DNA from: Cladocopium goreaui
Taxonomy: Eukaryota > Sar > Dinophyceae > Suessiales > Symbiodiniaceae
Direction: 5' to 3'
DNA: 64,000 nucleotides
NCBI GenBank assembly: GCA_947184155.2
Contig: CAMXCT020001113.1
Location: 1,421,493 to 1,485,492, forward strand
The notes below the pieces were generated by a model. The model made no database searches and was not told where the DNA came from. It saw only the letters and a program-made list of their open reading frames with translations. Positions 2,710 through 63,109 of this stretch are shown piece by piece. The translations under genes and the position numbers were made by a program. How positions within the stretch are numbered: the first letter of the stretch is position 1; every line of letters begins with the position of its first letter.

Positions 2710-3115
2710 CGCTTCACTTCAGTACACTCCACTACACTCCACTACACTCCACTACACTACACTACATTACACAACACTACAACTACAACTACACAACTAC
2801 ACTCCACTACACTCCACTACATTCCACTACACTAAATTACATTACACTACACTAAATTACACTACATTACAGTACACTACACTCCACTACACTACATTAC
2901 ACTTCACTACACTACCTTCCACTTCACTACATTACACTACACTACACTCCACTACACGACAACTACAACTACAACTACACAACTACATTCCACTACAATA
3001 AACTCCACTACACTCCACTACACTCAATTATACTACACTACATTACACTACACTCCACTACACTACATTACACTACACTACACTACCTTCCACTACACTT
3101 CACTACATTACACTA
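2710..3115. repeat. CACTA/CATTA-rich simple array
   Basis: Degenerate pentamer array (CACTACACTCCACTACATTA...), about 400 bp, strongly strand-asymmetric (A/C on +). No coding signal. Confidence 0.9.
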
Positions 3116-3640
3116 GCGCAGTATTTTAGATAAGTCGAGGAGAAAAATCAGAAGACACATTGGTACGAGGCTGTTAGGGCTGCACTCAACTTTCCATTTT
3201 GGAAGGAAGTCTCGTAGAATTGTTTTGTTTTTGATGTTGTTAAATTCAAAAATCGGAAAGTTTTGCAGAATAGCTTCGTTTAGCTTGCTGCGCCAAGCAA
3301 TGTTGTGCCACACCCGCCAAAATCTGATAAGCATGTTTCAAATCTTATAGTGAATTCAAAAGAGTGGTAGACGCATGCAGCAAAATGAAAGTAACGGACG
3401 CGCAAAACGAAAGTTCCCAAAGTTTGTATTCGGGAAAAGTCTCAAATTTGTGGCAATTTTTTGGGAAAATTGGGATGGCAGAGCGAAGCCACTGATGGAC
3501 CGCCAGCTGCTTGACATCTCCTCTCTTTCTTTCTTTTTCCCGAATGCGTAGCAAGGGTTCCCGTTTCACTCTGGGGGTCTGGGGGTTGAGGGTGTGTTCG
3601 CTCGACGTTGCGTTCGCGAGCGCAACCGTCCGCAACCGTT
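3116..3640. other. Unique-looking spacer, nothing recognised
   Basis: Between two repeat blocks. No convincing gene, RNA or inverted-repeat element was seen; the open frames are under 110 codons and lack recognisable motifs. Confidence 0.4.
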
Positions 3641-4127: not shown

Positions 4128-4803
4128 AAAGTTGGAGGAAGTCTCGCACGAAATGCTCGTTTTGGTGCTCCCACGTGTCTCGTCTCGAGTCTCTGGTTTC
4201 CCTGTGGCCTCGCCGTGTCTATGGGGGAAGCTGGAAAACATGTTCTTGCGGCATGTTTCAAACTATGAAAATTGGAGGAAGTCTCGTACGAAATGCTCGT
4301 TTTTCTGCATCCACGTGTCTTGTCTCGAGTCTCTGGTTTTCCTGTGGCTTCGCCGTGTCTATGGGGAAGCCGCAAAACCTCTCCTTTTCGAAGGTTTCCA
4401 AGCAGCTTGTCATGTCGTTTTGCGTGGCAGGCGTGGCACTTTGTGACATTCCAACGTGTTTGATAACGTGTCGAAAATGTCAAAATTGGAGGAAGTCTCG
4501 TACGAAATGCTCGTTTTTCTGCATCCACGTGTCTTGTCTCGAGTCTCTGGTTTTCCTGTGGCTCCGCCGTGTCTATGGGGGAAGCCGCAAAACCTCTCCT
4601 TTTCGAAGGTTTCCAAGCAGCTTGTCATGTCGTTTTGCGTGGCAGGCGTGGCACTTTGCGACATTCCAACGTGTTTGATAACGTGTCGAAAATGTCAAAA
4701 TTGGAGGAAGTCTCGTACGAAATGCTCGTTTTTCTGCATCCACGTGTCTCGTCTCGAGTCGTTGGATTTCCTGTGGCGTCGCCGTGTCTATGGGGAAAGC
4801 TCC
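4128..4803. repeat. 214-215 bp tandem repeat, about three copies plus a short variant
   Basis: AAAATTGGAGGAAGTCTCG starts at about 4268, 4482 and 4697, each time followed by TACGAAATGCTCG, CACGTGTCT, CTGTGGC and GTGTCTATGGGG. A shorter variant copy occupies 4128-4264. The third copy is cut at about 4800, where the CACTCC array starts. Confidence 0.85.
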
Positions 4804-4805
4804 GC

Positions 4806-6273
4806 ACTCCTCACTCCACACTTTACACTCCACACTCCTCCCTTTACACTCCACACTCCACACTCTACACTCCACACTCCACACTCTACACTTTACACCC
4901 CACACTCCACACTTTTTACATTTTACACTCCACACTCTACACTCCACAAACTAGACTTTCCACTCCACACTCCACACTCTACACTTTACCCTCCACACTC
5001 CACACTCCACACTTTACACTTTACACTTTGCACTCCACACTCCACACTTTACACTCCACACTCCTCACTTTACACTCCACATTCCACACTCCACACTCCG
5101 CACTCTACACTTTACACTTTATTAAACTCCTCACTCCTCCCTCCACACTCTACACTCCACATCCCCCACTCACACTCCACACTCTACACTTTCCACTCCC
5201 CACTCCACACTCCACACTCTACACGTTGCACTCCACACTCCACACTTTACACTCCACACTCCACACTCCACACTTTACACTCCACACTCCACACTCAGCG
5301 CTCTACACTTTACACTTTAAACTCCTCTCTCCTCACTCCTCACTCCACACTCTACACTCCACACTCCTCACTTTACACTCCGCACTCCACACTCCACACG
5401 CCACACTCCACACTCTACACTTTACACTCCACACTCCACAGTTTGCACCCCACACTCCACGCTCTACACTCCACACTCCTCACTTTACACTCCACACTCC
5501 ACACTCTACACTTTACCCTCCACACTCCGCACTCCACACTCCACACTTTGCACTCCATACTCTACACTTTACACTCCTCACTTTACACTCCACACTCCTC
5601 ACTTTACACTCCACACTCCTCACTTTACACTCCACACTCCTCACTTTACACTCCACACTCCTCACTTTACACTCCACACTTCCCACTCCACACTCCACAC
5701 TCCACACCCCTCACTCCACACTCCACACTCTACACTTTCCACTCCACACTCCACACTCCACACTGTACACTTTACACTCCACACTCCGCACTTTACACTT
5801 TACACTCCTCACTCCACACTCGACACTCTACACTTTACACTCCACACTCTACACTTTACACTCTACACTTCACACTTTACATTTTACATTCTACATTCTA
5901 CACTCCACACTCTACACTTTCCACTCCACACTCCACACTCCGCACTCCGCACTCCACACTACACACTTTACACTCCACACTCTACACTTTACAATTTACA
6001 CTCCTCACTCCACACTTTACACTCCACACTCCTCACTTTACACTCCACACTCCACACTTTGCACTTTACACTCCTCACTCCTCACTCCACACTCTACACG
6101 CTACACTCCACACTCCACACTCTACACTTTACACTCCACACTCTACACTTTACACTTCGCATTCTACACTTTACACACTCTACAGTCCCCACTCCACGCT
6201 TTACACTCCACACTCCACACTTTACACTCCACACTCCACACACACTCCACACTTTACACTCCACACTGCAGAC
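4806..6273. repeat. 1.5 kb CACTCC/ACACTCTACACTTTA array
   Basis: Degenerate 7-mer and 14-mer repeats (CACTCCA, CACTCTA, CACTTTA). Stop codons are scarce in two frames, which yields meaningless open frames of about 600 codons. Strong A/C versus G/T strand asymmetry. Confidence 0.95.
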
Positions 6274-6919: not shown

Positions 6920-7020
6920 TTTAAAATGGATCAATACATATGAATGCCATTTTATGGGGATGAACATCCATTTACCAGTTATTTTGATGTTCACCAGGGG
7001 TACAAGGTTTTGACCCATTG
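6920..7020. mobile_element. Family D element
   Basis: ATGGATCAATACATATGAATGCC, then GGGGATGAACATCCATTTACC, TTTTGATGTTCACCAGGGG and TACAAGGTTTTGACCCA. Five copies of this roughly 105 bp unit occur in the window. Confidence 0.75.
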
Positions 7021-10417: not shown

Positions 10418-13400
10418 GTTTTGATGGGAAGCACATCTATATCTGATTGGTGGTTTGGAACCATGGAATTTTATGACTTTCCATTGAATGTCATCATCCC
10501 AACTGACAAACTCCATTTTTCAGAGGGGTTGAAACCACCAAGCAGGTCTATAAACGTTAAACACAACTGGATATTGAATGGGAATAGGGATACAATTTGT
10601 GGGGTTTTAGTGATCTTTCAACGGGAAAAAAATCGAACCAAATGGAGGATGTTTCCAGCCATGTGATTTTTCTTAGCAGAGGGTAACCGGACACTCTTGG
10701 AGATGCCGAGTTGGTGATTGTTGATTTCCCATCTTTTTGATGGCCACTCAATGACTGGGACACGTTTGGAATATTTCGTTTTGGTGGCCGTGGCACATCC
10801 AAGTACTTGGGGGGTTCAGTTCCAGTCATTTGTGCAAAGAACCAGTCAGTTGTGAGGTTACATCCCTGAAAAATGCGGAGCTGTGGCTGCTATAAAGGTA
10901 CTTGATGATCTTTATGGGCAGGAATACGTTGAAAATCGTTTGTATGGGCATATGATCTGATGGTTCAATGGATTCTCATCACGAAGCAGCATTAAATCAC
11001 AGACAATTTTCTCCCAATCCAGCATCACCAGTGATTTTTCTGGTGAAAAATGCCGGTTTAATTCCCCAAATGTAGGATTTCCAATTTGGTCACAATTTAA
11101 TCAGCACTTTGCTTTAAATTTTCACATATCACATATCCCTATTCCTAAGTTCATCATTAGATAGCAGCAATTTGAACCTCGACCAAACAAGATCTGAATT
11201 ATCAAACAAAACATACAATTCCTATTAGGTTCCCATGTCCGTTGGAAAACATCATGTGATACCATTTTATCAAAAATACCCCAAAATATCCCAATTATAT
11301 ATCTATTTATATACATCCATTATATCCCATTGTATTCCACCATTGGGATCCCCAGCACTTCGTCCCAAAACGCCAGGGTACTCCGCGCGCTACGCGATGC
11401 CCCACTGGAACATGGAGGGGACGCGGTGGAGGATGGGGCGGGTCCACGCCGGATGGGGTGAACGGCAGGGGTTTTGGTCATTTTTTGGGGGGTTCGAAGG
11501 GTGCAAAAAATGACGGCGAAACAATGACCAAAGAAATGTGCAAAAATTTGTTTTAGCTGTAGAAATGGTGAACATGGCAAAGTTTTGGGAATCTTGCTGC
11601 CAAATTGATGTTTCCCCACATTTTTGTTTGGCAATGTGTTGGAAAATCGGCTGTTTTCGGCCAAACAAAATGGTTGGACTGGGGTGAATGGTACAGCGAC
11701 GGACTGAAACTTAGAATGCCTCCACGTTTCTCAAAATGATTTGTCCCGGCTCTTAGAATGCTTCGAGAAACAGTTTTGAATTGTTTTTTGAATTGGCTGC
11801 GACATACAATTGGAATTTTGATCTATTGTTTTTTTTGGATTGGCTGCGAATTGGTTACTGTATTTTGCTTGGCCAAAAAACATGATGAATTTGATGATGT
11901 GTTTATGATTTAAACTACACCGGGTGACTTATGTTTTGTCTCTTGGCATTTTTGTTTGTTTACCATAGATTGTGTTTGGTCAATGGTTGGATATTGTAAC
12001 TTGCCATGATATAAGTAATGAGAGGCAGTTTGATCAACAACATATCGGGGAACTGTTGGGATCTGCAAAATTCTGGGAATGAACGTTGGGGAATGTCAAA
12101 TCAAAGTGGCTCATAAGTCATACATATCTGGTTGGTGGTTTGGAACATGTTTCCCATATATTGGGAATAATACTCCCAACTGACTTTCATATTTTTCAGA
12201 GGGGTTGAAACCACCAACCAGATATGTTTGTTACCATAGATGGTCTAGAAACATTTACACACCATGATACTAATCTTCCGTTTTTTTTCCCTGTAATAAA
12301 CAATGGTGACTTTTTGTTTTTCCTCCATGGTGTGGCTACTTCTTTTGCTGAGGGTCCCTGCTTGTATCAAAATAGTAAGGATGAGCTGGCGAGTTGATCA
12401 GTTACCTGATCATCGTTGATAAAATTGACCTTAATTTTATGAGCAGTTGTCCCTGTATTTGTTTGGAATCTACCCTCAGACCTCATTAACATATTATGAG
12501 TATTGAGTATACTTACTTATATAATCTTATATATATATATATGACTAGACCTCAAAATATGTTATATAGTTATTTACTTATTTACCAACCAAATCGCATT
12601 TTGTGCATTTTTTTCTGGGTCTACTGTGACGGTGCCTGAGATTGTGAAACCCCCCAGGATCCACAGGAAGGCATGGGAGAAGATGAGGACGCAGTGAAGC
12701 AGAGTGGGTGGTTCGCGGCGAAATTTAGAGCCATCAGAAACAACAAATACCGTAGCTCTGTTGATTGAGGCCCCCTAGATAGATTAGATTGATTTAGATA
12801 TAGTTGACTTCATTGACGTGGTGAACTATGGTTTACTTGGTGGCTCATCCCACTTAGTACACGTGGGTTAGTTCACCCCAGTTATGGAATAAGAGTCTTA
12901 ATCCACGTAATCCACTGGGGTGAACTAAGCTGTTTACGATTCACGGGAGGCAACAGGTATTGATTGGTAAATATGAGGGGCTATACTGACCCCTGGAAAC
13001 AGTAGGGCTCTGGTGCAAAAGTCGTGTCAGTCCGTGCATGATTGCCACGTGTTTCTCTTATGGATGGTATTGTGCTACCAAACTTCCTGCCATGAAAGTT
13101 GGAGGGTCATGCCCCCAATGGACCCACAAATCTCGACCCCAACCTCACAACCTCTAGTTTTTTGATGTTTAAGGCTATACCAAGTAGTTTTGAGGGCTTA
13201 AATACCCAAGGGTTCCTCCATGTTCCTCCAAAATCAGGGTGTCCCAACATCTACTGATTGAAAACCGCATGTTATTTTTTGTAGACACCTGAAAATGTCA
13301 TCTTTGATGTACTATGTATTTACAAAAACACATAGTATATAGGTACATATAATATTTTAAAAATAATATATAGAATATAATGTGTATATATATATATAAT

Positions 13401-25400: not shown

Positions 25401-28400
25401 TCTATGTAGCTGATATTTGCTGACATGGAGCGATAGGGAATGTTGTATCATCTCGGGCTCCGAAGTGAAATTTGTGTCAAATGATCTCCAACTGAGGTTG
25501 CGGCGGATGCAAATGCCTCGTGGGGCTTCCGATTTTGCAGCGGCGGTTGGGAAACGTTCAAGAAGATGTATGCATTGAGTATCGAAAATATATTAAACAT
25601 ATTTAAACATATTCCCAGATTTCAGAAAATCTGGATTGTCAATGGATTGGTTTAAGGTAATTTTTACAGGAAAGCGCCATAAAAATATGACATAAAATCG
25701 ATGGTTTCCTACGGATTTTCTAAACCAATCCATTGCGATTGGATCTGAGGAAATTTACAGGCACCACAACATGTTTGAAAATGATTAGCCTCCAGTATCC
25801 GACAGTCTTCGGTTTCTACCCTCCGGTCATTTGATACATCGCTACAAATAAATATATCCCATAGGATCCATGTCTGCTATCCGACAGTCTTCGGTTTCTA
25901 CCCTCCGGTCATTTGATACATCGCTACAAATAAATATATTCCATAGGATCCATGTATGCTATATATGGTAGCATGGATCCCACCAATATACCCCAGTCAT
26001 GTTAACATATATACCAGCACCATGGATCCTATGGGTATAGTATACATATATATATATATATATCATATATATATATATATAGTATACATATATATATATA
26101 TTATAGATGAACCAATTGATGAAACCATCAACAGAAGGTAAAAGCCTGAAAATGGATTTGCCCATGACATGGTTGCCATTGGGCCGAGGTTTGAGGCCGC
26201 CGCAGGGCACAGCCGTCACTCGGCCTCGGTTTGGGCTGATCTAATGGGATGGGTTGGACCGATAGTAAAATGGTGCTTAAATGGTGATCTAATGGTGATT
26301 TTGTGATCTTTTTCATGGCAATATAATAGGGGATAACATGGATAAATGATGAAAACTGGTGGTATTTCTTCATGAAACAGATAGAAAATGGCAATCTATC
26401 GAAGCAAGATTGAGATTTGTTGACGGACTTTTGATGGCATACTGGGTGATTGTAGTTGGATATAATTAATGGGATACATAAGCTGCAACAAGGTGGGATT
26501 TACAGAAACAATTGAACCAGCCAAATGTTGAGCATTTCTTGATTTGGATTTAATCAACAGAATGGGGGAGAACCATGTTGTGTATATATATATATATAAT
26601 TATATATATATATAGGTAAGCCTCAGAATGGTTGATACCCCAAGGTTACCATTTTGAAGGTAAACATGATGGTACATCATGGGATGAAGGTGTTTCCAAG
26701 TCTCAAGGAACCACATCTTATTCCTACCATCCAAAGGGTTATTAGTCTTGCCTGTATCGTGTGGCGATATTCAAGGGAGCTGGAGATAAGAGTATAATAC
26801 ATATACCCCCTGGTAAACTAACATAGCTATGGAAAATCAACATTTATAATGGGAAAATCCACTATAAATGGCCATTTTCAATAGCTATGTTAAATTACCA
26901 GAGGGTATAATATATATATATATGATTATACATATACTCATACATATTATGTATAATATATATACTGTATATATACCTGCACCAGGGTGCCCACTTCGAA
27001 AAAGTGAGACATTCACATCATCCGAATCCCCGGCACCACTTGGCGGGTTGGTCCCAGTCTGGCGACCTCGTTGGCCCCATTGTGAGGTATGTGTTTGGTT
27101 CCCATTATGTCCCATTGAATATAAATGGGTATGGATCTTATGGATCAATACCTATTAATACCATTTTTAGGGGGATGAACATCCATTTACCAGCTATTTT
27201 GATGTTCACCAGGGGTACAAGGTTTTGACATACTGCCAAATCCCCATGGGTCATTTCTCAGGAATAGAACATACTTGAAACCAGCAGCTGTTGTTTCCAT
27301 CTGTGGGCAGTTATTTAAACGTCTCCAATCGCGCCGTGGGGCGCCTCCTCTAGCGCCTGAGCGAAGGGTTCTTATAAATGACAATGAGAGATATGAAACT
27401 ATGTGGTTCATAGATACATGTCATATGAGTCACATCTCACATAATCTACAGACACAACACACATACACGATCTCACCTATTCTCTCTCTCTCTCTCTTGA
27501 TTTTTCTCTACACTCATTTTTTCTCTACTCCCTATCTGTCTTTAGGCGCAGGGACCGTGCTAACGAGAAAGTTGGTGATCATCCAGATATTTGGATCCCA
27601 TCCCCCTACTAGTGAATACCTGCTCGAAGCCCTGGTTTAGTATTGGATCAATTCATGTTTGGGGCCCGTATGGGTTAGTATTATAGTATATTCCATATGG
27701 CATATTAGATTAGTAGGCAAAGGGATTGAGGATTGTTTGATCATGATTATCACTCAATTGTTCCATTACTACCCCATGATTCCTCAAAATAGTCGTTTGA
27801 AAACAGATTTCGAAATGGTTAAGTCAAGCCATGGTCTGTGGTTGGTCAGAAATTATTGTTAATATCACCATCACACCTCCATGAATATCCCACTAAATCA
27901 TCAAAGAGATTGATAGACCCCCATGACTTTGATGGTTGTTTCATCCCCCTGGGTAAATTATAATAACGACCTCACTGTTCTCCCTCACTGGAATCATGTG
28001 TTAGGATTCGGGAAATCATCCCAAAATGGCCCAACTATTCAGGTTAGTGAAATATGATAATTTACCCAGACAATATATACATATACATATGTTTTTAATA
28101 TGCTGTTTGATAAGCTCCCATGACTTTGATGGTTGTTTCATCTCTTATCCATCAAATACTTGCACTATTAACCACCATCAATATGGGTTTGTTCACGTCG
28201 CCGCCTCCTGGAGTATCGAAAATCCAGAATTTCTGCATGACCTGGAAGCTGGTGCAGTTACTGAGGGTGTTACTGTTACAACAAGAGGCAGAAGAAACAA
28301 TGGTGATTTCATGGGGATACACTGGGATATATGATGTTTAATGGGGATATATATATATATACCAACATCCAAAACTTTGTGGCTGCTGTAGAACGCAAAA

Positions 28401-34400: not shown

Positions 34401-35156
34401 CCTAGGTGGAAAATACCATGCGACATGAACAGTTCGAGCACCAAAATGTTGCAAATACCACGGAAAATGAGAGGTTTGGAGTCCAAATGTTGCAAAATGT
34501 GTTTGAAATGGCAGCTTCCAGCTCCAAAATGCTGCAAATAGCACGGGAAACGGACAGGACAGGAGATCCAAAAAAAGATCCAAAAACGGAAAAACAAAAA
34601 AAAACAAAACAATTCCAGACCCATATATATAATATATCGCCAACAAGATGGTATTTGGGTGTGTCTGAATATGGGATATCTTATGGGGATGTGACCTACA
34701 ATATTGGCATATGAACCGGGATATGTATAACTATATATATATATATATATATAATTATATGTACAATGGGATGTATAAAAATAACATATGATATTTGAGA
34801 ACTTGGACGGTATGGTTATATTTTCAAAAGTGTTCGAGCAGTTATGTACACCTACAAATATGGCTATGGATCAATACCTATAAATACCATTTTTAGGGGG
34901 ATGAACATCCATTTACCAGCTATTTTGATGTTCACCAGGGGTGCAAGGTTTTGACCCATCCCCATATAAGTTTTAGTTTTTGACCATTGCTGTGGCCAAC
35001 TGTTGTGCTGTGAATGGTCGACCAAGAGTTTTGTTCATACTGCACGCAAGCGGTGAAATGCGTGTGTGTGTGTGTGTTGTGGTTTTTATATGTTATATAT
35101 GTATATATGTTTACATTCAAATTACATCACCTTGTTTCAATATGTGATGATGATGA

Positions 35157-35192
<36 letters not shown>

Positions 35193-38100
35193 TATATTTC
35201 CCCATTCAAGTTGACATCGGCAAGTTCCAACTTTGTCACCTATGCAGTCCCATGATGTTTGTTGCTTATACTTTCCTATATGGTTTTGTCTGAAATATCA
35301 ATGGGAATTCCAGGATCCTAAAATGGAGGTACTGTACCATATAAGGCCATATTTTGGGGGTATATCCCCTTACAGAAGCCTTACATAGGCCTTAAAATAA
35401 ATGATAGGTACCACGGTACCTCCATTTTGGGTTCCTGGAATGGCCATTGAAAAAAAGGCATCCCCAAATACAAAATATGTTGAAACTCAGCTTTCGTTAT
35501 TCAGAATGCATTTCTGTCGAGGGTCCACCAAATGCCCATATCCTGAAACTATATCCTCAATCAATCTATCTCTTAACTATAGATAGATATGGCCTCAAAA
35601 AGATATATCTATATAGTTAATGGATACACTAAGGCGCAGGATTTTTTATTTACTCTATCCTTAATTGTATGGTATGGTACCACCAGGACAACTAAGCCTT
35701 CGTTATTGGAGTTAGAAACCAACTCACCTGACTAAGTCAGTCATGGGGCCAACCTGTCGGCCCAGACCCCTTCGACCAATCCACTCGTCAGCGAGGAAGG
35801 GCTACGGAATGGGCGGTTCTTTTGGGTTTATGGGATGGTCAGACTGTCAGACCTTCGGTTTTTCGGGGATGGGGCTGCCAGATGGGTTTGTCTGAAAATG
35901 GGGAATACCTCGGCAAAAAAAAAAATGAAAGCCACAAGAATTCTGGAGAACTCATATGCCGAATTGCATTCCCCTTGCAGGAAATAGTGATTTCCATCAT
36001 TGCATAGAATGTGGTAAGTACCTGATTTTCAGACAAATCCAGATGTGAAGACTGATGACCTTAGGCTCTCTTTGGATTAGATCCGATAGGAACTCCAAGT
36101 GACTATCACTGGTAGCAACCGGCATGGTGCAAAAAATCCAAAACCGGCATTTGTTTTGATGGTTGTAACATCCAAGGAATACTTCACTGGCCTGCACTTG
36201 TTTAGGACATTTGAAAGTATTCGGAGGTAAGCTGGTTTGGCTCAATATCCATTGGGGAGACTCCAAAAATGCGGTAGGGATTCTTGACATGATATCTCAA
36301 AAGGTGACAGTGTGACAGCGTTGGAAAACAAGGTCAGAACGAAAGCATTTTTTTGAACAACTACAAAGTGTGCAAACCATGTAGGGGGAACTCTTTTGAT
36401 CTGTTTCCTTCCCATGTGTACGAAATAACATGTGTCGCTCAAATATAGTCATGGAGCATGAAAATCATTGCCCAAGATGCCAATGTTCCAAAAACACCGT
36501 GGAGTTTAGCGAATAAACATTGTGCATCCTGTTTATATCTGTTTATTTTATTCCCATTCAGATTTGCTCAGCTATACCTTCCCAGCCGTGCCATGAAGCG
36601 CAAAGCCGAAAGCTTTCAGGAGGCAGAGAGTTCCATCAAACTTGAGGTCTCCTTGCCAAGTGGACGGTGTGCAACCGTCTCGGTTTTGGAGTCTGGCACC
36701 GTTGCTGACCTGAAAATCGCTGCGCAACGGTCTCTGGAGCAACGCTTCCTGAGACTTGCAACAGCTGATGGGCGTCTTTTGGATCCAACAGACTCTCTTC
36801 ACCTTTCTGGGCTCCGAGATGGAGACAGCATCGCTGCCGTAGCGCAACAGCCAAAGCTAGCTGCAAGGATGCATGCATTTGCTTTGTGGTGCATTGGAGG
36901 CAGAATTGTCACATGGGGCCATCCGGATTGTGGTGGAGTCCCACATCGGTTCGGGAATATTAAGGACCAGCTCAACAATGTTCAGCAGGTTTGTGGAACG
37001 AAATTTGCCTTTGCTGCGGTTTTGTCAGATGGAAGCGTGGTGACCTGGGGTGATCTAGACTGTGGTGGTGACAGCTCCAAAGTGCAAGATCAGCTCAAAA
37101 ACGTTAGGCAGATTTCTGGCGCATTCGGCGCTTTTGCTGCCATTTTGGCAGATGGAAGCGTCGTGACCTGGGGCGATCCAGACCGTGGTGGTGACAGCTC
37201 CAGAGAGCAAGATCAGCTGAAAGACGTTCGGCAGATTTCTGCCACATCCGGCGCTTTTGCTGCCATTTTGGCAGATGGAAGCGTCGTGACCTGGGGCGAT
37301 CCAGACCGTGGTGGTGACAGCTCCAAAGTGCAAGATCAGCTGAAAAACGTTAGGCAGATTTCTGGCACATTCGGCGCTTTTGCTGCCATTTTGGCAGATG
37401 GAAGCGTCGTGACCTGGGGCGATCCAGACCGTGGTGGTGACAGCTCCAAAGTGCAAGATCAGCTGAAAAACGTTAGGCAGATTTCTGGCACATTCGGCGC
37501 TTTTGCTGCCATTTTGGCAGATGGAAGCGTCGTGACCTGGGGTGATCCAGACCGTGGTGGTGACAGCTCCAAAGTGCAAGATCAGCTCAAAAACGTTAGG
37601 CAGATTTCTGGCACATTCGGCGCTTTTGCTACCATTTTGGCAGATGGAAGCGTCGTGACCTGGGGCGATCCAGACCGTGGTGGTGACAGCTCCAAAGTGC
37701 AAGATCAGCTGAAAAACGTTCAGCAGATTTCTGGCACATTCGGCGCTTTTGCTGCCATTTTGGCAGATGGAAGCGTCGTGACCTGGGGCGATCCAGACCG
37801 TGGTGGTGACAGCTCCAGAGAGCAAGATCAGCTGAAAGACGTTCGGCAGGTTTCTGGCACATTCAGCGCTTTTGCTGCCATTTTGGCAGATGGAAGCGTC
37901 GTGACCTGGGGCGAACCAGGCTTTGGTGGTGACAGCTCCGAGGTCCAAGCTCAGTTTTTGTACATCTAGTGAATCAATTACTGTCTAGGCATACCACAGG
38001 GCCAAAATGAACATGTCTTGCTGGCTGATTTGCATTTGTTTGAGGTGAAGCGTCTTCCCTCACATCCTCATGTTGGTCGTTTCGGGTTTGTGATTCCGTG

Positions 38101-41100
38101 GCATCTCACAGTAACATCAATGAACAGAGAATTGCATAGATATTTGCTGTACATCATGTTTTTAATCGGCTATGGATCAATACCTATACATACCATTTTT
38201 TGAGGGATGAACATCCATAAATCCCAGCTCTTTTGATGTGAACTACAGGGGTACTATTGGTTTTGACACACTGCCAAGCCTCCAAATTTCGGCATGGAAA
38301 GCTTCACCGAATCGCAGGACTTTGATGCCATCTTCACTGAAGCTAGCGGACGTCCCTTGGATTCAGATCTTGAAGTGCGTTTTGCTGTGGTCCTATGGTG
38401 GGCAAACTCACTCCTGGATGATTTTTGGGGATATGTAAAATCAAGTTCTGTATGGTTTTTCTATACAACATGTCTCATATACCGTGTATCTATATATATA
38501 TATAATTATATATAGATGTATAATTATTAGTTGTATGACTGCCAACTGGTACTGTGTGTTGAGTATCATGTAGCCCGTCCCCATATCAATGTACTAATTA
38601 TTAAGCTACCCGATTTTGTTGCCGGGTCCTACAGGGGATTCATGATCATTCATTTTGTGGTTTAAGTTGATTTATTGCCCATGGCGCAAGGTTTTTTATC
38701 AATGAATGACAGGTGCTTCCCATTACTTCAATCAACGTTTGGGCAAAGCTCAAGTCTTGAAGTTTTGATCAATTCAAGCTTTAGATTAGGGATTGAACTT
38801 CAATTCTTTGTGATTATATGTGATTATATGTGATTATATTATTTTTCCTATGGTTAAATCTCCAATTTTGATGTTTCAATCATCCTCCTGTCTCACTGAA
38901 AATTAGGCATCTTTCATGCCGAACCCTCAAGATGTTTTCTTGCATCCCCAATCTCCATCAATCTCCCATCTCTAGATGATTTACCTCTGTAAACACCGGA
39001 CATTTCCTGCCCATCACCGTTCGACGCCCCGAGGTCTCCGTTCCCAGCTGCGGCTGCCGGAGCCCGAGGCCACACCGGCGGCGCCGGCGCCGACAACGGC
39101 GACGCCGACAGCGGTGCCCACGGAGGCGCCGGCGAAGGCGGAGGAGCTGAGGGGCGGGGATCATTTCTGCCACAGCTATGGGCTGGTTGGTGATTTCAAA
39201 CATGTTTTCTTTTCCATAATATTCTGTTTGAAACCACCAACCAGCAATAATTTTTAGTGAGAAACAATAGATCTGATTGGTGGTTTCAAACATCACCTGG
39301 AAATATGAAGATATCATAGGAATAATGGGATAATTATGATCTGGTTGGTGTTTTCAAGCATGAATTTTATTGTCCATTTTCTATATGGGATGTCATCCTT
39401 CCCATTGACGAACTCCATCATTTTTCAAGATGGTGAAAACATGTTAAAACCACCAACCAGTGGGTAAATCATGTAAAATCGCCCTGAAAATGGGGGGTGA
39501 TGGTTTTCTGATGTTGCATGGGATTTAAACAAAAAAAAGTAGCTTAATGGAACCTAATTTTTCATGGTGGCCCCGAAAATTGAGCAGGACAAATGATGGT
39601 TTACCTGCAAATGCGTTATATTCAAAGCCTCACAAAAGGTACTCATAGCCGCCTTTGACATGAGAATTTCACATAATTTCATTCGCAAAAAAAATATAAT
39701 TTATCCATTTATCCACGGGATTTATGGAAACTTATGGGGTTAATGATGCATCCAGTCATTATGGTTTTTAATCCCCATAACAGCCCCATTTCATGGTGTA
39801 AATATCATTTTACGCGTGAATAGTTAAACCCAAACATGTGATATATCCCATCCTATATCGTCCCAATCATCGATGGCTAATCCCCCATTCATGTTAATCG
39901 TGAACCCATCGCATTTTGGATCGTCAAATCCATCGTCTGCGATGCATAGCTATTGAAAATGGCAATTTGTACTTGATTTAATGGGTAAATCCACTATAAA
40001 TTTCCTTTTTCAATAGCTATACTAGAGGCTAACTGTTTACCAGAGGCTAAATCCACCATTTTTCCGCTTCATTGGAGCTTCCAACTGTTCACCTTGCCTC
40101 CAGGAGACCGCCGCTGAGGCCCCGCCGGCGGAGGCGACCGAGGCTCCGCCGGCGACCCCGGAGCCGGCGCAAGCTCCGCCGCAGGAGGCGCCGCCGGCGC
40201 CGCCACAGGAGGCCGGGTACGGTGGATGACCTGTAAAAGTGATGGAAAGATGGGGACTTTGAACCTGGCTTCACCAAAAATGATGGTTGATTTGGTTGAA
40301 GCAGCAAAACATGAGGTTAAAAATGAGGTTTTAAGCAAGTAAGATGATAGTTGTACATTGAGATTGATTTTGAATGTAAGGATTGTAAAACTATATCAGT
40401 TTCAACGCGTTTTGGATCGGGAGACGGAAACGAAAAACATCTCCATGGGATGGATTGGTGAGTGTTGGATTATGTTAGTTACCCCATTATGTGTTTTTTT
40501 CCCACCATAAACCCAACAGTTATATTGGTGTTTGGTGTTCTGTCTGCCTACTAACATATAAATCAACCATCAGAATGTTTGTTGGTTAAATCCAAATTGT
40601 CGTTCGGTAGATCACCAGTTCATCTTGTTAATATCTAATATTTTGTTTTAACTGATTCAGTCAGCATGTTTGATGGAAAGACTCACACTTTGAATGGCCT
40701 TAAATGGCCACACGTCGACAATGTTTGCTGCTGAGCTGCAGCAGAGCTGGTAAAATTCGCTTAAATCAGGTTAAATCCCATTCAATCCCATCGGCATTGG
40801 CATTGAAAACCCTTCCGATTTGTCCCATTCCCAAGGGTCCCAACTACCTGGATCCAGATCTTAGGTGCTTAAACTCCATGTCACGCCAGGTGGCAGAGGT
40901 GCCAGCTGAAGCTACAGAAGCCACGCCTGAGGCCGGAATCCAAATCGTGGTGAGTTGGGATGCTGCATTTTTTTTCGGGAAGTTGATGTGAGTTAATGGG
41001 ATTGAATGGGATTGAAATGGCCAAGTTGGTGAACATAACTCCATTAACTATGGTGTACGGAAATTATAGCGTATAGTTGAGGGTGATACTAAGCCAACTT

Positions 41101-44100: not shown

Positions 44101-47100
44101 TTGAGTGGTTGCCATAGATTTCAACAACCCACATGGCCAAGTTAGCCATTCCACTCCAAAATTGTCTTTTAATGAGACTTTTTTGAGTTTCACCGGTGTC
44201 TGTGAGAGGCAGAGGTCGCCCATCTTCTCAGCACCCCCTGTCATCTCCCATCCCTTGTCTCCCATAGATACACAGGCCAAGTCGCACTCCATGACGGATT
44301 AGGATGGATTAGGTACTTGGTTGAGCTGGATTTTCTGGAAAGTGGCGTTCTTGGGGCACTTTCTGGGAGTGTCACTGGTAGTCATAGGCTCAGTGACAGC
44401 AGACGCTGGAGGCCAGGTAGGAGAGATAACTTGCGCAGCGCTTGGCGGACGAATCAGGGTGGATCGCGGGCGGCTTCATCATAGCACTCCACACGCGGGC
44501 GACGTATGTAAGCCCCACAGGTGGAACATGGATGTTACCCTCTGGTAAACTAACATAGCTATAGAAAATCACCATTTTCAATGGGAAAATCCACTATAAA
44601 TGGCCATTTTCAATAGCTACGTTAAATTACCAGAGGGGAATTAGTTTTGTTCAGATTTTGTTCCAAGAACAGAAGGCTCAAGCGGTTTTCGGTTTCCCTC
44701 CTTTGGTTCGCAGATAAACACAGATAGTCACATATGTGTATGGGTCAATACCTATAGATACATTTTTAGTGGGATGAACATCCATTTACCAGCTATTTTG
44801 ATGTTCATCAGGGGTACAAGGTTTTGACCCATCCCCACATATGTGTATGTATATGTTTTCATATTCTTATATATGTTGTATGTGTTTTAGATTATGCATC
44901 ATTACTTGATCATCCTAGCAGATCCGAGTGAATCATGGCCCAATCGCAAACATGGCCTGGATTTCCAGATATTCCAAAAAGGCATATGACCTCCAACAAA
45001 GATAGAATGTTGTTGAAGTATCAATGTGTTCACTATGGGCCATGGCTAGCTATGTTAAATAACCAGATGGTATATATCTGGTTGGTGGTTTCAAACATGA
45101 CTGTTATTTTCCATAGTATATGGGATCCCATCCTTCCCATTGACTTTCATATTTTCCAGAGGGGTTGAAACCACCAACCAGGTGTTGTTGAATTATCAAT
45201 GTGTTCACTATAGGATGTATCATATTTTACATCATTGTTTTATCGTTACCGTATTAATCGATGATTAAATCATGTGTGATGTTATACAAAACTACTATAT
45301 ACTTGTTTATTCCTTGCCATTTGCAGCTCCTCACCTCAGGCCGAAAAAAACTGAGAGTAATAGTGATTATTAATAGCAATAGTAGTTGTACCACATGCAA
45401 ACCATGTCAAATTAGCAGCAACTATTGCAGTGGTATTTACCATTAGTAGTAATAGTACTTGCATACCATGAAGCTAAGTCATCTAAACATTGCACCATGA
45501 TGTTTATATATATAATATTTAATATATATATATATATATATGTATATAGTCGTTCTACATAGGATAACTGCACCATAATATCAGTCATTAGTAATTACAC
45601 CATTACAAAACCATTATACATAGAATACTGCCATGGTATAATGCCATAGAATATAACCATACTATAGCCATTATACATTATATTATACATGATATAACCA
45701 TGATATAACCGTTATTTCTGGACATTTCTGCTACGTCAATGCCATCGAAAAAACCAAAAAGGCCGAGCTGGAACGCCTGGCTGTCAGCCTCGGCTGCACG
45801 CAGACGGCGCTGCTGCAGGCGGTTGATCTAGCAACGGGAGAGGTTAGGCACACATTCTGTGGAACTAAAAGATTGGGAGGTGTTACCCTCTGGCAATTTA
45901 ACATGAACATGGCCATTTATAGTGGATTTACCCATTAAACATAATAATTTGCCATAGCTATGTTAGTTTACCAGAGGGTAGCTATATATGTCAATGAAAT
46001 AGATATGTCAAATGTATTTATATAGCTACTATAATTGGGATATATATCAGATTGAGATATCGTGGGATGATATGCAGATATTTTGGAGATCTTGCGATTT
46101 GATTCGGGAATGGGAGATGTCAAGCTCCTGCATTTGTTTGAGGACATTGCTATGAAACATAGTGAATGAAAATGTTTTATTTTAAGGATGGGAAAGTGTG
46201 GGATAATCAATGATGATTTTTGATTTTACATTCAGCAATACGGATGATTAAACTTGATTTCACGAGTTAACATGTCAAGATCATTGTTGATAGTGTGATC
46301 AACAGAAACGGGGATAACAATAATATGATGTGTGTGTGTCAAAATAGAGGATGAGGCTTCAATCCATGAGATGTTGGGCTACCCTAATTCCAGGCAAACC
46401 CATATATATATACACATAGCTAACATCATGCCCCCCCTCAAGAAGAAATGCGTTTGGTATTGGAATTACTCATATTGTGGTCTCATATATGCCATGCAGA
46501 AATGCATTATAACTTGGTTATGAACCCCTTTAAAAAAAACAAAAAAACATTCGATGCACATTGAAGTGGTGAGCTGTTTGGCGAATCATCCTGCACAGGA
46601 TTGCCTCAACACCAACCTAAATGAATGTTTTCAGGTCATGTATCGTTCTGTTTTTTCTTTACACTCATGATATGCTTGATTCATGTGTTATGTTCTGTCT
46701 TCAGGATTTAGGGTGTTTCAGGTTCGCTGTTGTTATATTGATGTTATGTCAATTGTATAGCTGTATTATACCAATAGAAAATACCTCGACTCTCACTGTT
46801 CACAGGCTGCTCTTCCAGGTTTGTATTTTCGACGTGTACATTTTATGTTGACGCAGGTTTGACAGTAAGGCAGGATTTGCTCGTAGACCCTGGTAATGTC
46901 TAGCAGTCTAGCACTAAACCTTCCGTATTTGGGGTGCAATGAGGTTTTCACCAAACCCGTGTAAACTCAGCATTTTGTTCTGGCGCCCTTGGCATTCTCA
47001 TGTTTTATGTTGTATGAATTCGTTCTATATAACTCTATATTATATATATATAGTCAGTAGCTGGTTGGTGGTTTGGAACATGTTTCATTTTTTCCATATA

Positions 47101-62876: not shown

Positions 62877-62990
62877 GTAAGTTATAACGACCTCACTGTT
62901 CTCCCTCACTGGAAATCATGGTTAGATTGCGGGAAATCATCCCCAAATGGCCGCAAGATTCAGGTTAGTGAAATATTATAATTTACCCAG
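62877..62990. mobile_element. Family E element, copy 2, apparently acting as an intron
   Basis: GTAAGTTATAACGACCTCAC left and TATTATAATTTACCCAG right; the interior matches the copy at 27948 at most positions. The left end gives a consensus GTAAGT donor directly after the Lys-rich exon, and the right end gives ACCCAG. Confidence 0.75.
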
Positions 62991-63025
62991 ATGAGTTGCT
63001 AACAGAATGGAAACTATACCCTCTG
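62991..63025 (+). CDS. Candidate exon between two introner-like elements
   Basis: If the family E element is the intron, its ACCCAG end is followed by AT that completes the split codon (Asp) and then ELLTEWKLYPL up to CTG|GTAACA, the left end of a family A copy. The phase is consistent, but the peptide carries no family motif. Confidence 0.35.
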
Positions 63026-63107
63026 GTAACAGATGGGTTCAATCACCATTCGAAGAAGATGTAAATCGTTATGTTTCATTGTTGGCTATGTGAAATTAGC
63101 AGAGGGT
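63017..63107. mobile_element. Family A inverted-repeat element (diverged)
   Basis: TACCCTCTGGTAACAGATGG left, GAAATTAGCAGAGGGTA right; only 27 bp from the end of the family E copy. Confidence 0.75.
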
Positions 63108-63109
63108 AA

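Follow-up and report, generated by a model that had tools for sequence, protein, structure and literature searches.

Introners have been put forward as the chief origin of new introns, and how mobile elements become compatible with splicing is an open question. According to Gozashti et al. 2022 (PMC9860276), introners are gene-enriched in 161 of 175 genomes, and those of the dinoflagellate Symbiodinium microadriaticum are described with inverted repeats and with 4-bp duplications, from which the 5' splice site is derived. The introner elements of Amoebophrya, as described by Farhat et al. 2021 (PMC7789003), carry paired inverted repeats near their ends together with direct repeats of 3-5 nt, and have mostly non-canonical splice sites. 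For Polarella glacialis, introner-driven introns are reported by Roy et al. 2023, as summarised in a review (PMC11453091).

We considered a window, by which we mean the whole stretch of 64,000 nucleotides analysed (G000:C1113:1421493-1485492), in a genome of 1,165,616,438 bases and 6202 contigs. A sequence-only reading had proposed that a 114-nt element near the right end of this window belongs to a mobile family, here called family E, and is an introner, its two ends being exactly the splice sites of an intron. The features concerned are collected in Table 1.

Table 1. Mobile elements and candidate gene features, in window coordinates
Feature	Position	Strand	Basis
Likely exon, GT GAG GAG AAG ... 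GCG GAG G, translation EEKPAKGKGKSKKETNKGAALHDLGKAE	62790..62876	+	coding log-odds, frame
Family E copy (focal)	62875..62990	+	BLAST relatives and family alignment
GTAAGT, donor-like, within the left inverted end (family form GTAAAT)	62877..62882	+	sequence
CAG, acceptor-like, right element end	62988..62990	+	sequence
26 nt separating the E copy from the F1 copy; the claimed downstream exon starts here	62991..63016	+	sequence, F1 profile match
F1 copy (unrelated MITE family, near-palindromic; TACCCTCTGGTAA...TTACCAGAGGGTA)	63017..63108	.	nhmmer
Second family E copy, both ends intact	27949..28069	+	BLAST, sequence
F2 example (CTGGTTGGTGGTTTGGAACAT...TTTTTCAGAGGGGTTGAAACCACCAACCAG)	12128..12221	+	family clustering; fold z -5.0
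Other F2 copies	6624, 10443, 31255, 31490, 32947, 43118	+	family clustering
Other F2 copies	45078, 47061, 47745, 50610, 60238, 60760	+	family clustering
F2b copy	62115..62212 (others 16098, 39341)	+	family clustering
F6 copies	6926-7018, 27139-27229, 34858-34964, 38168-38270, 44732-44837	+	family clustering

Family E is a mobile family with many similar copies in one genome: a 21-mer of its core (GGTAAATTATAACGACCTCAC) has 3307 exact matches, the reversed control none, and among the best 40 scored of the 2702 candidates found with 62860-63000 as query, the top identity after the query itself is 98%. The same core gave 0 matches in both the viral and the GTDB collections, in which near records may be left out. 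We sampled the family at 40 fetched loci with 55 E-like places, and seven of these loci were dropped as near-identical duplicates (the second member of each of the pairs L011/L012, L014/L015, L017/L018, L027/L028, L030/L031, L037/L038 and L044/L045, whose flanks are almost the same although they lie on separate contigs, as would result from haplotypes left uncollapsed or from a recent duplication). Most copies read CTGGGTAAATTATAACGACCTCACTG...GATTCAGGTTAGTGAAATATTATAATTTACCCAG, are about 115-121 bp long and have inverted ends of ~15 bp (CTGGGTAAATTATAA); no coding capacity was seen in the family. Target duplications were then scored in 55 copies (44 and 11 from two sets), leaving out 16 without clear ends: 16 of the 39 both-ended copies have a perfect 6-bp duplication, against 2.9% with re-paired flanks, and lengths of 4, 5, 7 and 8 bp occur in 3, 0, 1 and 0 copies. 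The right flank starts with AT in 33 of the 39. With terminal inverted repeats and a target duplication of fixed length (6 bp), family E is a MITE-like non-autonomous TIR DNA transposon, which would have spread by cut-and-paste, mostly into AT-rich non-coding DNA within the gene-bearing regions of what, from the genome size, an RCC1-repeat gene at 36.4 kb and the spacing of predicted exons, is probably a large dinoflagellate genome. At locus L010 (~2926-3233), another MITE (GTGGGTAAAACAATG...) comes after sequence resembling an exon; E is seemingly nested in this MITE, which also carries GGGTAAA in its inverted end.

Like the S. microadriaticum introners, family E is short and repeated, has terminal inverted repeats and target duplications, resides in a dinoflagellate and has one putative splice site at an element end. 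It differs from them in its 6-bp duplications, theirs being of 4 bp, and in that the GT is part of its left inverted end; a 4-bp duplication supplying the 5' splice site was not found for E. Furthermore, the S. microadriaticum introners were found as annotated introns, whereas sampled E copies are mostly not introns and lie mostly outside coding sequence. The Amoebophrya elements share with E that they are repeated, have inverted ends that can pair in RNA and have direct repeats, but E has canonical GT/AG ends and the longer 6-bp duplication. The P. glacialis introners, likened here by the description in the review, have in common with E a dinoflagellate host and large families. Family E resembles MITEs in its size, its inverted ends, its target duplications, the absence of visible coding capacity and its thousands of copies; it differs in an orientation that is nearly fixed across the neighbouring copies sampled.

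The GTAAGT that had been placed at 62877 and the TTTACCCAG that had been said to end at 62990 were both seen in the focal copy, which thus has GT...AG ends of the spliceosomal-intron kind. Most family E copies start with CTGGGTAAAT and the focal copy with GAGGGTAAGT: GAGGG replaces the CTGGG of the family, CT being changed to GA at 62873-62874, and the GG at 62875-62876 lies inside the upstream exon frame. The core variant with GGTAAGT has 36 exact genome matches, against 3307 for the GGTAAAT core. The inverted ends of the focal copy are imperfect, and they are paired in the predicted fold of the element as RNA (-36.5 kcal/mol, z -3.9). A second copy had been claimed near 27948 and is present at 27949; BLAST of 62860-63000 aligns it at 27951-28070 with 87.6% identity over 121 columns. 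A 6-bp target duplication is absent around both copies.

On the upstream side, the lysine-rich exon that had been read directly before the focal GTAAGT is supported, in the frame that had been named for it, by a coding score that ends at 62876. Using a small coding model, for which 7 kinase stretches and 600 nt from an RCC1-like frame served as training set, we obtained a log-odds of 14.1 for the best segment (62789-62876), which, with repeats unmasked, stops at the base before GTAAGT; 62790-62877 scores 13.2, and an equally good score was found before 0 of 559 other GGTAA control sites (88 nt, in the loci). The exon is of low complexity and has no named domain.

Coding sequence in frame is present upstream of the focal copy and not downstream of it. 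The frame that follows excision of 62877-62990 is open, as had been noticed, up to the TAA at 63062-63064; the exon claimed there, through ELLTEWKLYPL, could not be upheld, as 62991-63061 shows no coding signal (in-phase log-odds -1.45) and runs into the F1 MITE. The profile of F1, a family with 84 copies across window and loci, covers 63017-63108 end to end (1-104 of 104; nhmmer, 1200 bases searched, E 1.3e-5). Past ELLTEWKL the frame reads F1 sequence, and 16 of the 24 claimed downstream residues (YPLVTDGFNHHSKKM with its preceding codon) are F1-derived. An open frame here is no more than expected by chance: 1051 of 5143 random stretches of CAG plus 71 nt are open and score at least as well. 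Between 62877 and the end of the window, a distance of 1.1 kb, no + strand exon is predicted; predicted + exons resume at 69055-69168 and 70490-70586 in window coordinates (64001-69000 reads N), and there may be more of a gene beyond the window.

The reading we place first, and to which we would give an even chance, is that a longer intron takes its 5' splice site from the left end of the focal copy (G|GTAAGT); this intron would also hold the F1 MITE and would have its acceptor elsewhere. The reading is supported by the exon signal ending at 62876, by the transposable element downstream, by the absence of a downstream coding signal, by the tendency of E copies to follow predicted exons closely and by the predicted + exons that resume at 69055 and 70490. 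Having no target duplication and two first bases that depart from the family, the copy would probably have inserted first within an existing intron, near its donor, and a small deletion or rearrangement would then probably have joined it to the exon. This history is a reconstruction from a genome in which no empty site was found, the joined flanks matching only the window itself. Against it, the exon, lysine-rich, of low complexity and with no named domain, could end at an in-frame TAA (62885-62887) inside the element, splicing might use the CAG of the element as acceptor, and F1 is also found near exon ends, a trend that is therefore not special to E.

If the CAG were the acceptor, the focal copy would be a complete 114-nt spliceosomal intron (62877-62990) with a last exon to the TAA at 63062-63064, which we consider unlikely. 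GTAAGT and CAG do stand at the element ends, the frame is open across the joint, the ends pair in the predicted fold, and inverted-end introners are reported for S. microadriaticum (PMC9860276); but two MITEs would then have furnished the intron and most of the residues after it, the log-odds of those residues is negative and matched by many random sites, the copy is without target duplication, sampled sister copies seldom adjoin coding sequence, and an exonic insertion with intact ends would leave CTGG and 6 bp (10 nt) in the mRNA, with a frame shift. Of the precise introner that had been claimed, the mobile family, the GT/AG in the inverted ends and the position flush with a likely exon stand and the complete intron is not supported, the claim being weakened because its downstream exon enters a second MITE and is without coding signal. 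If instead there were no splicing, the last exon would enter the element and stop at 62885-62887 (..GKAEGKL), with E and F1 in the 3' UTR or beyond; this is quite unlikely, for although the retained frame is open to that TAA and still scores 10.4, and no + exon is predicted from there to the window end, the score drops from 13.2 on entering the element and a consensus-like GTAAGT lies exactly at the end of the coding signal. An introner with two flanking exons was rejected on the negative downstream log-odds and the F1 match.

As for the family at large, whose copies should coincide with introns if it were one of introners, the sampled copies are mostly not introns by themselves. Coding-like sequence (log-odds of at least 5) ends at the donor position in 2 of 32 other non-duplicate E-centred loci, L024 (10.0) and L040 (5.6), both below the focal value, and is found in 1 of the 18 tested (of 35 other) GTAAGT-variant copies, L073 (7.5), in which about 15 nt separate the end of the likely exon from the element. 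A pattern with ten mostly G/C bases before the left E end has 11 places genome-wide, against 3307 cores. By these samples, E copies would seldom be introns, and rare intron-forming copies are possible. E lies within 200 nt downstream of a predicted + exon in 13 of 35 cases, against 14% of random positions, and within 200 nt before one in 2 of 29, against 14% again; this nearness to exon ends is not specific to E, because F1 shows some of the same (14 of 52 by the downstream measure).

Insertion in either direction is the usual behaviour of TIR transposons. Judged from its sequence and placement, family E is a MITE with splice-like ends that is also strand-locked. Among the first 100 matches listed for each family, which are those of the first contigs of the assembly and not a random draw, neighbours within 100 kb are on the same strand in 44 of 45 pairs for E and in 35 of 35 for F2, a family of about 100 bp (CTGGTTGGTGG...CCACCAACCAG) with a 28-mer that has 2698 exact genome matches, whereas the control family F5 (26-mer, 524 exact genome matches) gives 17 of 26 (p 0.17). 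In these same first 100 matches, the strand of E agrees with that of the nearest F2 within 50 kb in 29 of 29 cases and that of F5 with the nearest E or F2 in 8 of 12, adjacent E pairs on one contig (C2 to C67) share a strand in 59 of 63, and 22 of 25 multi-copy contigs are uniform in E strand.

Repeat families were also built from the window and 32 loci, each turned so that its central E is on the + strand. All F2 (45/45), F2b (6/6) and F6 (9/9) copies in this turned set are +, and E is 43 to 1, with 32 of these copies setting the orientation; the independent extra E copies of the loci are 9 to 1. By contrast with these, F1 (40 to 44), F5 (L034:4486; 6 to 4), the family at window 25941 (4 to 7) and the family at L011:22 (4 to 4) occur in both orientations; small families of 4 to 13 copies are not to be judged singly (two gave 4 to 0, a third 1 to 6). 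Within the window itself every copy of F2 (13/13), F2b (3/3), F6 (5/5) and E (2/2) is on the + strand. The ends of F6 (TATGGATCAATACC...GACCCATCCCCA) are not GT/AG, yet its nine copies in window and loci have one orientation. The sense strand of F2, and that strand only, holds CTGAC and then TTTTTCAG, like a branch site and an acceptor. F2 has a weak 4-bp duplication signal (7 of 34 perfect), by which it could be closer than E to the S. microadriaticum introner type; it had 0 matches in viral contigs, where near records may be left out. No report of strand-locked MITEs or introners was found among the open-licence papers searched.

A strand-lock of this kind implies either that the insertion of TIR transposons can be orientation-dependent or that the other orientation is purged, by unusually strong selection on small intronic insertions. 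The direction of the surrounding genes bears on both, dinoflagellate genes being arranged in co-oriented clusters according to a review (PMC11453091). We judged gene strand by the coding model, of which the leave-one-out strand accuracy is 289/320 at 120 nt (~90%), because Pfam gave little on frames from E loci (3 weak single matches from 146 of 999 GC-rich frames). After repeat masking (threshold 10), predicted exons are 30 on the + and 7 on the - strand in the window, and 88 with E and 44 against it in the loci turned by E; the E strand predominates in 25 of 32 loci and, among the decisive ones, by 15 to 3. We also compared 83 kinase, 83 ion-channel and 67 ankyrin places with 261 element places, leaving out the repeat rows of one gene and the bacterial-looking contig C1. 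Within 120 kb, 6 of 8 domain hits agree with the element (on C23, C4401, C115, C5915, C5 and C54), as do 6 of 6 of those that are stop-free; the two that disagree (C6167, C586) are weak matches with 5 and 3 internal stops, and beyond 120 kb, 3 agree and 4 disagree. Contig C1 (matches up to 7.28 Mb), with its many long kinase frames that lack introns, resembles the sequence of a bacterial contaminant or associate. E therefore runs mostly with genes, less strictly than it runs with F2. Three loci have predicted exons that are decisively antisense (L026, L044 and L048), and the F2 copies in L044 (4) and L048 (2) still follow E.

The case for insertion that is itself directional, following the way in which transcription or replication runs in the region, seems to us evenly balanced. 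The agreement among elements (44/45, 35/35 and 29/29) is tighter than that between elements and genes (25/32 loci), two unrelated families share a regional direction, with switches common to both on C25 and C36, and the AT of the E right flanks (33/39) is one-sided; on the other side, such insertion would depart from the usual two-way insertion of TIR transposons, and a strand caller right in ~90% of cases at 120 nt may explain the looser agreement with genes. Somewhat short of this in our estimation, and still a serious candidate, is random insertion followed by selection that purges copies lying against transcription, because the reverse strand of E or F2 would carry harmful splice or 3'-end signals. 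The mostly co-directional genes near E (exons 88 to 44, loci 25 to 7), the domain hits within 120 kb (6/6 without stops, 6/8 overall) and the CTGAC...TTTTTCAG on one F2 strand only are consistent with it, but it needs near-complete loss of small insertions in long non-coding stretches, in which unlocked MITE families occupy the same places in both directions. Because the F2 copies of L044 and L048 follow E despite antisense predicted exons, the data favour a regional cause (directional insertion or replication direction) over gene-by-gene selection, subject to the ~10% error of the strand caller at 120 nt. We tentatively suggest that several unrelated MITE families (E, F2 and probably F6) insert in an orientation set by regional transcription or replication and would occasionally donate splice sites, in the only orientation that is workable.

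A MITE with GT and AG in its inverted ends, strand-locked and mostly non-coding in its placement, would be a natural introner precursor, splice-ready in one orientation and occasionally caught by a gene. If directional insertion is true, E and F2 copies would be usable as a strand marker for the directional blocks of the genome. For annotation, the focal locus warns that a stretch of MITE can be mistaken for the last exon of a gene. Elsewhere in the window, where predicted exons are about 1 kb apart, a + strand RCC1-repeat (HERC-like) frame at 36449-37969 has ~7.7 near-identical 123-bp units (Pfam RCC1_2), and a tandem array at 4800-6267 holds ~209 copies of the 7-base unit CTCCACA.
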